A DNA stretch of 64,000 nt from the NCBI GenBank assembly GCA_944393005.1, contig CALXYO010000006.1, positions 1 to 64,000 on the forward strand, given 5' to 3'. The first letter of the stretch is position 1, and each line of letters opens with the position of its first letter. A program made the position numbers and the translations under genes. Under the pieces are notes generated by a model. It did no database searches, was not told the DNA's origin, and worked only from the letters and a program-made list of their open reading frames with translations. The DNA comes from an uncultured Spirochaetales bacterium. GTDB lineage: Bacteria > Spirochaetota > Spirochaetia > Sphaerochaetales > Sphaerochaetaceae. Positions 37,771-38,743 of this stretch are shown piece by piece.

Positions 37771-37826
37771 ATCAGAAGAGGCAACACATCATCAATAACA
37801 ATAACTGAACACCGTATTAAAAAAGT

Positions 37827-37855
37827 CCTCCCAATCCCATGCGGGAAAAGGAGGT
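37827..37855 (+). promoter_or_regulatory. Hairpin sequestering the ribosome-binding site of peptide 1
   Basis: The sequence cctcc-caa-tccc-atgc-ggga-aaa-ggagg pairs the Shine-Dalgarno core with an upstream anti-Shine-Dalgarno stretch and nests a tccc/ggga stem. The same element precedes peptide 2 with one extra A. Confidence 0.65.
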
Positions 37856-37862
37856 GATGAGT

Positions 37863-37967
37863 ATGTTTAAAATAGTACTAGAGCTTGCTCTGATGCTTCT
37901 AAGGATTCTTCATGAAATTCTTGGTCTTGTTAAGGATATAAAAAATCCTCGCCGTCCTAAAAGCTAA
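37863..37967 (+). CDS. 34-residue hydrophobic peptide, candidate type I toxin-like protein (copy 1)
   Basis: The peptide reads MFKIVLELALMLLRILHEIL then GLVKDIKNPRRPKS: one hydrophobic or amphipathic helix and a basic tail, the make-up of type I toxins (Ldr, Fst, AapA) and other tiny membrane peptides. A very strong aaaggaggtg site lies just upstream but is predicted to be closed in a hairpin. A 7-bp hairpin (37946-37952/37975-37981) spans the stop codon without a T run. The 3' block at 37994-38040 is nearly identical to that of copy 2. Coding is supported by conservation with copy 2 (VLELALMLLRI, LGL, KD, KN, RRP) amid third-base differences. Confidence 0.7.
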   Translation: MFKIVLELALMLLRILHEILGLVKDIKNPRRPKS

Positions 37968-38247
37968 TGGGTAAGCGAGGAAACTCAAATTAACCAGAGG
38001 TCACCGTCTTGCTGGCGACTCTTTCTATCTGAATAATAAAATCCGAAGAACAAAGAAATCAACACTTTTCTCTAAATTTGTTTATATAATGTACTTAAAT
38101 TACGGATTTTCATAATCTGAACACCATACAACACGTAAAATCAGTAATTTAAGGGAAAATAAGCTTGCGTACTCTCCTCTTCTTCTGTTAGGATACACAA
38201 GTCGTCAGCAGATGTGAGACGGTGGCCTCCTGCGTCCCGCGGGAGGA

Positions 38248-38277
38248 GTCCTCCCAATCCCATGCGGGAAAAAGGAG
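38248..38277 (+). promoter_or_regulatory. Hairpin sequestering the ribosome-binding site of peptide 2
   Basis: The stretch cctccc...tccc-atgc-ggga...ggagg repeats the element before copy 1, so the structure is conserved between paralogues. A further gggagga/tcctccc palindrome lies immediately upstream. Confidence 0.65.
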
Positions 38278-38286
38278 GTGATGATT

Positions 38287-38394
38287 ATGATAAAAACAGT
38301 ATTGGAGCTTGCTCTGATGCTTCTGCGGATCTCCAGAGAGGTTCTCGGCCTGTTGAAGGATACAAAAAATCTCCGCCGTCCAGACCAAAGGTAG
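38287..38394 (+). CDS. 35-residue hydrophobic peptide, candidate type I toxin-like protein (copy 2)
   Basis: The peptide reads MIKTVLELALMLLRISREVL then GLLKDTKNLRRPDQR, a close paralogue of copy 1. The start at 38287 lies six bases after aggaggtg; an in-frame ATG at 38281 is too near. The stop codon falls in an intrinsic terminator (tctccgc/gcggaga then tttttt). Unlike copy 1 it retains both arms of the long inverted repeat, the terminator T run and the ribosome-binding-site hairpin, so it is likely the active copy. Toxicity, an antisense antitoxin, and membrane targeting are inferences. Confidence 0.75.
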   Translation: MIKTVLELALMLLRISREVLGLLKDTKNLRRPDQR

Positions 38395-38407
38395 CGGAGA
38401 ATTTTTT
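38370..38407 (+). terminator. Rho-independent terminator overlapping the end of peptide 2
   Basis: Arms tctccgc (38370-38376) and gcggaga (38394-38400) are followed by six T. The stop codon ends at the first base of the 3' arm. Confidence 0.75.
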
Positions 38408-38743
38408 CCATAAACCAGAGGCCACCGTCTTGCTGGCGACTCTTTCTATTTGAATAATAAAATATGGAAAGCAAAAAATCAATCTTCATTTTATCGAAAC
38501 TTGAACTGAAATTCGGTAAAAGTTCAGAATTCACTAAACTCAATTTATAAGGAAATATGCTTTTTGTATTTAAATAAATATTTTGTTTACTTATATTTAT
38601 ACAAACTACTCAGAACAAAATCAAGCAATATCCTTTAGTGTCACTTCAAATATTTCATAAAAATGGTTCATAAAACAATAAAATCAAGTCAGAATTCCAC
38701 TCTAATGTGAGCCGGTTTACGGCTTTTCCGTGTATAAGTGAAT

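Follow-up and report, generated by a model that had tools for sequence, protein, structure and literature searches.

Until a cyanobacterial case in 2025, type I toxin-antitoxin systems had been reported only from the Proteobacteria, Firmicutes, and Tenericutes (PMC12390103). In one of the systems closest to the locus described here, BsrG/SR4, binding of the antisense RNA at the 3' end of the mRNA alters the structure around the Shine-Dalgarno sequence and blocks translation (PMC8167048). In the aapA mRNAs, aapA1 among them, an interaction between the 5' and 3' ends sequesters the Shine-Dalgarno sequence, and trimming of the 3' end activates the message (PMC8167048, PMC6733600). TisB and DinQ of Escherichia coli are amphipathic helices of 27-29 residues whose narrow polar strip carries a few charged residues, and a PXXXGC motif has been reported for Fst/Ldr peptides (PMC8309996). 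The literature we searched, which left most subscription journals outside its scope, contained no spirochaete type I system; the modules described below would be the first type I toxin-antitoxin-like system in the Spirochaetota.

We analysed a window of 64,000 nucleotides (the whole stretch of DNA under study, belonging to contig 6 of a 2.26 Mb, 20-contig assembly of an uncultured gut Spirochaetales bacterium), in which two very short genes lie between neighbors that we take to be ackA and recQ (named from their protein sequences, without a family search). An initial annotation had read these genes as a type I toxin-antitoxin-like or regulatory membrane-peptide family, an interpretation now supported by homologues, covariation in a long-range stem, coding constraint, and an antisense promoter, with toxicity and transcription still inferred. 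We consider it probable, though well short of established, that they are a tandem pair of modules that resemble type I toxin-antitoxin systems and belong to a new family, with a proposed RNA switch. Comparison of sequences establishes the family itself, the covarying stem, the promoters on both strands, coding constraint, and, in some genomes, an association with integrases. The elements of the two copies, several of them predictions, are as follows.

37824-37855, plus strand: copy 1 Shine-Dalgarno hairpin (CCTCCCAATCCCATGCGGGAAAAGGAGG), preceded by neither a 5' repeat nor a matching toxin promoter
37863-37967, plus strand: copy 1 open reading frame (ORF), 34 residues, MFKIVLELALMLLRILHEILGLVKDIKNPRRPKS
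37947-37981, no strand assigned: copy 1 stop-codon hairpin (TCCTCGC...GCGAGGA), of the same class as the hairpins of other units
37997-38019, plus strand: copy 1 3' repeat, GAGGTCACCGTCTTGCTGGCGAC
38033-38062, minus strand: copy 1 antisense promoter (TTGATT 38062-38057, 18-nt spacer, TATTAT 38038-38033)
38165-38194, plus strand: copy 2 toxin-mRNA promoter (-35 TTGCGT 38165-38170, 18-nt spacer, -10 TAGGAT 38189-38194)
38201, plus strand: predicted start of the copy 2 toxin mRNA
38201-38229, plus strand: copy 2 5' inverted repeat, forming the mRNA 5' end (GTCGTCAGC, a 7-nt bulge, then AGACGGTGGCCTC); pairs with 38418-38440
38226-38279, plus strand: copy 2 Shine-Dalgarno lock predicted by folding, in which CCUCC at the end of the 5' repeat pairs with GGAGG at 38274-38278; hairpins CCCGC/GCGGG and GGGAGG/CCUCCC are nested inside it
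38287-38394, plus strand: copy 2 ORF, 35 residues, MIKTVLELALMLLRISREVLGLLKDTKNLRRPDQR; predicted amphipathic helix at residues 2-29, followed by a basic tail
38371-38399, no strand assigned: copy 2 stop-codon hairpin (CTCCGC...GCGGAG), in this copy with T-runs on both sides
38418-38440, plus strand: copy 2 3' inverted repeat, GAGGCCACCGTCTTGCTGGCGAC (the TCTTTCTAT that comes after it is possibly a weak mRNA terminator); the repeat's opposite strand forms the 5' stem-loop of the predicted antisense RNA
38358-38447, minus strand: predicted copy 2 antisense RNA of ~90 nt, inferred from promoter, fold, and terminator hairpin; starts at about 38447 and spans the 3' repeat, the stop hairpin, and the last ORF codons
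38454-38482, minus strand: copy 2 antisense promoter (-35 TTGATT 38482-38477, 17-nt spacer, -10 TATTAT 38459-38454)

Both ORFs are present where the initial annotation had placed them (37863-37967 and 38287-38394). The ribosome-binding-site hairpin that it described as shared is identical over 26 nt (37824-37849 and 38247-38272), and the copies have two further direct repeats, a 64-nt start block (86% identical) and a 69-nt 3' block (87% identical). The inverted repeat noted around copy 2 likewise exists, joining 38201-38229 to 38418-38440 with a perfect 13-bp arm, and it belongs to copy 2 only. The description as a tandem pair holds in part: both peptide genes are real, but copy 1 lacks a 5' repeat and a recognizable promoter of its own, so the window carries one intact and one 5'-truncated unit. 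Copy 1 keeps its ORF, 3' repeat, and antisense promoter; its counterpart in another genome, G012, has lost and kept the same elements. A third unit lies on another contig of the window's own genome (G000:C14).

In the arrangement we propose for an intact unit, a weak promoter would drive an mRNA of roughly 250 nt encoding a 35-residue, amphipathic, basic-tailed peptide, which most likely enters the inner membrane and, if made in excess, damages the cell, its toxicity being inferred. A stronger promoter on the opposite strand, just past the mRNA 3' end, would yield the ~90-nt antisense RNA, fully complementary to the mRNA 3' end, the stop codon, and the last codons.

Homologous units are found well beyond the window. 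DNA and profile searches found units in 12 of 150 relatives and in 28 to 33 of 139 genomes of the same bacterial family, in two genera. There is also a 26-base DNA match in G139. At the class level (395 genomes), matches were confined to two genera plus one marginal case (G383), and a phylum-level search (393 genomes) returned nothing beyond the same two. A nucleotide profile recovers 51 distinct units, some interrupted by contig ends or insertions, and a peptide profile 60 ORFs when weak matches are counted in. In all, about 50 units were collected, with counts that depend on the threshold. Some loci were collected repeatedly under different names; deduplication was by sequence, which means that identical copies at different places count once. 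All genomes are metagenome assemblies. Copy numbers in these drafts are probably underestimates because assemblies break at near-identical repeats. The matches in L046, L042, and L086 lie at bases 127-222 of their contigs, and, consistent with such breaks, several copies stop 126 bases short of a contig end.

Intact units share a common anatomy of toxin promoter, 5'-3' stem, Shine-Dalgarno hairpin, ORF, stop-codon hairpin, and antisense promoter. Their peptides fall into at least four sequence types, A (the window type), B, C, and D, with a probable fifth, E. The type D/E units that were found by peptide alone (L143, L144, L146, and L147) all carry the antisense promoter, and three of these four also have the paired repeats, L147 being the exception. 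Tandem pairs also occur among type D-like units (L111, G171:C88; L110, G010:C130; L145, G151:C154). Searches of Rfam, Pfam, and NCBIfam gave no family match; PHROGs gave no family (best E 0.03), plasmid and phage collections no match, a peptide search of viral contigs no hit, and a PDB profile search weak matches only. A PADLOC match to PDC-S35 (E 0.013) was dropped as insignificant. A 17-mer of the 3' block matched 13 viral contigs, the best of which (L135) lies inside coding sequence and looks coincidental. As far as these sequence comparisons reach, the module family is previously undescribed and multi-copy.

In units with both repeats, the mRNA ends are predicted to pair strongly, with RNAduplex energies that mostly fall between -44 and -69 kcal/mol when the whole flanks are included. 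The stem consists of 9 outer and 13 inner pairs, with 3-12 nt bulging out on the 5' side, and the copy 2 mRNA as a whole folds with z = -5.8. The long-range pairing that had been proposed for copy 2 is borne out by covariation: across 26 distinct sequence pairs, 15 of the 22 stem pairs show compensatory changes, 94.1% of stem cells are paired, and 95 cells are changed on both sides versus 34.8 in shuffles. The covariation score is 0.534, versus 0.262 for shuffled alignments (0/500) and 0.04-0.13 for slid versions. In place of the outer strand of type A, GTCGTCAGC/GCTGGCGAC, other units have, for example, GGCACTGC/GCAGTGCC, GGTGCTACC/GGTAGCACC, or GGCATAGCC/GGCTATGTC. The alignment was built on motif anchors from the units themselves, which favors pairing, and the covariation measures and the slide control remedy this bias only partially. 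MAFFT misplaced the repeats when all types were aligned together, which made for a poor automatic consensus fold; the stem was therefore realigned on its own anchors before counting.

Two readings in which the RNA plays no part must be weighed against this pattern. The repeats could be chance or decayed sequence without function, some copies being truncated or frameshifted, but covariation, promoter spacing, and coding constraint over about 50 units refute this unless the alignments are artefactual, and we give it practically no credence. Alternatively, the unit could be a miniature mobile element, with terminal repeats for a transposase or integrase and an incidental ORF, as its several copies per genome, its inverted repeats, and the location of some copies just downstream of a tyrosine integrase might suggest. 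The repeats, however, are internal, the conserved unit running about 40-50 nt past both, to the -35 boxes. The stem contains 83 G.U cells versus 11 A.C cells, as for RNA and unlike DNA repeats, an excess indicating that it is selected in the toxin-strand RNA. In addition, the ORF is under coding constraint, many units have no integrase nearby, and in those flanks that were read by eye no target duplication stood out. We regard a mobile element as very improbable and retain the type I-like interpretation.

The promoters on both strands are recognizable across the family. On the toxin strand, most of the 37 units whose 5' repeat can be recognized have a -10 box that stops 6 nt short of that repeat; per-base conservation peaks at the -10 and -35 boxes, with the spacer near background, and the type A -35 boxes are mediocre (TTGAAG, TTGCGT). 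Beyond the 3' repeat on the minus strand lies a near-invariant sigma-70 promoter that the initial annotation missed. In the 43 units compared, it reads TTGAC or TTGAT, a spacer of 16-18 nt, and then mostly TATTAT, GATAAT, or AATAAT, with the -10 box usually 15 nt outside the 3' repeat. Its mean score is 12.0 (9.9 in shuffles, 9.4 in the adjacent 75 nt), and GTCAA, which is TTGAC read on the opposite strand, occurs 35-52 nt past the 3' repeat in 34 of the 43 units, versus 0, 1, and 4 in control intervals. Footprint-like conservation stops at the antisense -35 box, beyond which it falls to background. Both window copies have this promoter (38482-38454 and 38062-38033). It predicts an antisense RNA of ~90 nt, a transcript inferred from the DNA and so far unobserved.

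The minus-strand promoter and a terminator hairpin are conserved together in nearly all intact units. The arms of this stop-codon hairpin covary among units (TCCTCGC/GCGAGGA, ATTCCCAC/GTGGGAAT, AAACCCGC/GCGGGTTT), and family-wide its T-run is found mainly on the minus side (about 5-7 of 9, versus 1-6 on the plus side), consistent with a putative antisense terminator. Conservation of the minus-side T-run may partly reflect the peptide, since the run overlaps conserved lysine codons. The mRNA 3' end is undefined; transcription of several units could already stop at the stop-codon hairpin, short of the 3' repeat.

The ORFs of intact units are 32-41 codons long and under purifying selection. Pooled pN/pS, available for types A and B only, is 0.45 over the first 24 codons (the core) in type A, where the median dN/dS is 0.31, and 0.53 in the type B core, values that show coding constraint. 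Differences at codon positions 1/2/3 are 0.29/0.15/0.32 in type A and 0.42/0.26/0.48 overall. Variation is almost absent from alignment columns L6, L10, L13, and L22 and only slightly greater at K3, E7, D25, and K27. The core forms an amphipathic helix with a moment of 0.42-0.48, a value matched by 0.5% to 14% of shuffles, and AlphaFold2, run on a single sequence, predicts one helix at residues 2-29 (mean pLDDT 84.8). Net charge ranges from +1 to +4, varying between types along with composition, and the PXXXGC motif is absent from the peptide alignments. The N-terminal halves of the tandem ORFs are exchanged between the window genome and G012 (L004; MFKIVLELAL vs M[IV]KTVLELALMLLRISREV), a swap suggesting that gene conversion may have occurred between copies.

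Folding predicts that the Shine-Dalgarno sequence is sequestered in the toxin mRNA and partly hidden in every state. In 35 units, the mean cost of opening it is 4.8 kcal/mol in the full-length mRNA and rises to 8.3 kcal/mol when the 3' repeat is masked, 8.1 when the whole antisense footprint is masked, and 8.2 in nascent RNA without its 3' end; control masks within the ORF give 4.5 kcal/mol. Masking the 3' repeat raises the cost in 30 of the 35 units and lowers it in 4 (p = 2e-7). Masking both repeats gives 3.9 kcal/mol, which identifies the 5' repeat as the lock. In 35 of 35 units, the 3' repeat forms a stronger duplex with the antisense RNA than with the 5' repeat (-57.0 vs -40.9 kcal/mol). 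Processing of the 5' end as an activator was also modelled and gave no consistent change.

These values suggest a possible switch. In the nascent mRNA, CCUC at the end of the 5' repeat would pair with the Shine-Dalgarno GGAGG, so that no peptide is made during transcription. When the antisense RNA is present, it would pair perfectly with the 3' repeat and leave the 5' repeat on the Shine-Dalgarno sequence, the resulting duplex presumably being degraded by RNase III, a role that is inferred. When the antisense RNA is absent, the 3' repeat would take the 5' repeat off the Shine-Dalgarno sequence and license translation. The antitoxin RNA may thus be a decoy that copies the mRNA 5' repeat and competes for the 3' repeat in a three-strand switch, a proposal that has a serious chance of being right but that we advance only tentatively. 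Both the switch and its direction are predictions from thermodynamic folding, without kinetic or experimental support. If the decoy reading is true, translation would require a complete mRNA, free of antitoxin, that has folded back on itself, and a three-strand RNA switch would exist in a phylum without a reported type I system.

The initial annotation drew an analogy with hok and aapA, in which the 5'-3' stem hides the ribosome-binding site. In both of those known systems the interaction is inhibitory, contrary to the direction that we propose, which counts against our model. In a variant of the present module along those lines, the stem would make the full-length mRNA inert, 3' trimming would activate it, and the antisense RNA would act mainly via cleavage of the 3' duplex by RNase III. 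The precedent of aapA1, the great strength of the stem, and the partial occlusion of the Shine-Dalgarno sequence in the closed form (the 4.8 kcal/mol above) are in its favor, but folding predicts the opposite, as loss or masking of the 3' partner makes the Shine-Dalgarno sequence less accessible. Moreover, natural 3'-truncated alleles in several genomes keep the promoter, the 5' repeat, and the ORF core without the antisense promoter, and a cell could hardly afford such alleles if truncation switched the toxin on. We therefore think this mechanism unlikely.

Several of these alleles are interrupted at the stop hairpin and lack the 3' repeat. The predicted Shine-Dalgarno cost in the 3'-truncated alleles is 4.9 to 12.1 kcal/mol, above 6 in 8 of 9, as the decoy model expects for an RNA without its 3' end. 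In L042, L037, and L081, the same foreign DNA is inserted at the stop-codon hairpin and in L081 encodes an IS-type transposase protein (HTH_Tnp_1); L046 and L086 share a different insertion there. Judging from these alleles, the palindromic hairpin resembles a hotspot for insertions.

About ten distinct units lie directly downstream of a full or decayed tyrosine integrase gene (PF00589; L006, L009, L025, L032, L037, L044, L045, L046, L050, and L077), and where read (e.g., L025) the unit's -35 box shares bases with the integrase stop codon. Other neighbors include an IS21 IstB and an IS605-type protein. An AbiD/Abi_2 gene adjoins one unit (downstream of L026), a PIN-domain gene lies downstream of two (PIN_3 in L078, a similar-looking one in L082), and a conserved protein of ~305 residues is encoded a few hundred bases past the unit in L025, L044, and L065, the L025 copy having no Pfam match. 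Comparison of ackA-recQ loci shows that G012 has the same tandem pair as the window, G009 has only a remnant matching 37824-37872, after which the match resumes at 38670, and in G015, G004, and G007 the two genes are 200-350 bp apart with no matching unit. Presence, remnant, and absence at one locus indicate that the module is gained and lost.

This behavior bears on a further possibility, that the peptide is an antisense-regulated small membrane protein, a non-toxin regulator or stress peptide, governed by the same RNA switch. No toxicity data exist, the variation of charge and composition between types would be compatible with such a role, and the window copies lie between ordinary genes. 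Against this, the modules are multi-copy, patchy, present or absent at the same locus, and linked to tyrosine integrases, and their frequent decay, IS insertion, and heavy translational control are typical of toxin-antitoxin systems rather than of a housekeeping regulator. We find a non-toxin role doubtful, somewhat more so than a hok-like mechanism, and continue to prefer a type I-like module. The position of units behind tyrosine integrases suggests a possible role in stabilizing integrated elements in gut spirochaetes. More generally, the family illustrates that unrelated type I-like modules can be recognized by convergent promoters and a covarying 5'-3' stem, without similarity to known toxins, which offers a way to search other phyla. 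The predicted logic, in which the antitoxin copies the mRNA 5' end and flips a lock, departs from the textbook hok/aapA scheme.

Among known systems, the proposed general resemblance to Fst/Ldr stands, in the short hydrophobic helix, charged tail, antisense RNA (predicted here), and bidirectional hairpin between convergent RNAs, but the PXXXGC motif is missing and the shared repeats are inverted here, whereas those of par/fst are direct. As in TisB and DinQ, charged residues (alignment columns E7, R14, E18, and D25) line up along one side of the peptide when it is drawn as an ideal helix; the searches run detected no sequence relation, the TisB/IstR-1 and DinQ/AgrB antitoxins are trans-encoded, and tisB uses 5' processing. 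Like hok/Sok, the module combines a 5'/3' fold-back of the mRNA with an antisense RNA, predicted here, and a membrane peptide, toxic in hok and inferred to be so here. Unlike hok/Sok, its peptide is unrelated, no mok-like overlapping frame was identified (upstream frames differ between units), and the predicted antisense RNA, whose promoter lies beyond the mRNA 3' end, covers that end rather than the 5' leader.

AapA/IsoA of Helicobacter and Campylobacter also comprises multi-copy short membrane peptides with a 5'-3' interaction, Shine-Dalgarno hairpins, and a cis antisense RNA. It differs in that the 5'-3' interaction here is predicted to unlock the Shine-Dalgarno sequence (30 of 35 units) and the predicted antisense RNA covers the 3' end; searches of Rfam, Pfam, and NCBIfam gave no sign of kinship with AapA or any curated family, and homologues occur only in the two spirochaete genera. 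BsrG/SR4 of Bacillus subtilis, with TxpA/RatA, BsrE/SR5, and YonT/SR6, shares with our module a convergent antisense RNA over the mRNA 3' end (predicted in ours), a small hydrophobic peptide with a charged tail, and an antitoxin promoter stronger than the toxin promoter. The antisense overlap of the 3' end and the greater Shine-Dalgarno occlusion that mark this class are, by folding prediction, met here. BsrG/SR4 is prophage-borne and, by the same three databases, without sequence relation to the spirochaete units. In the spirochaete module, moreover, the mRNA 5' end shares the sequence of the antisense RNA 5' end and is predicted to compete with it for the mRNA 3' end; we know of no such repeat pair in BsrG/SR4. 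Without claiming membership in either, we place the module nearest to BsrG/SR4 by function and nearest to aapA by mRNA shape.
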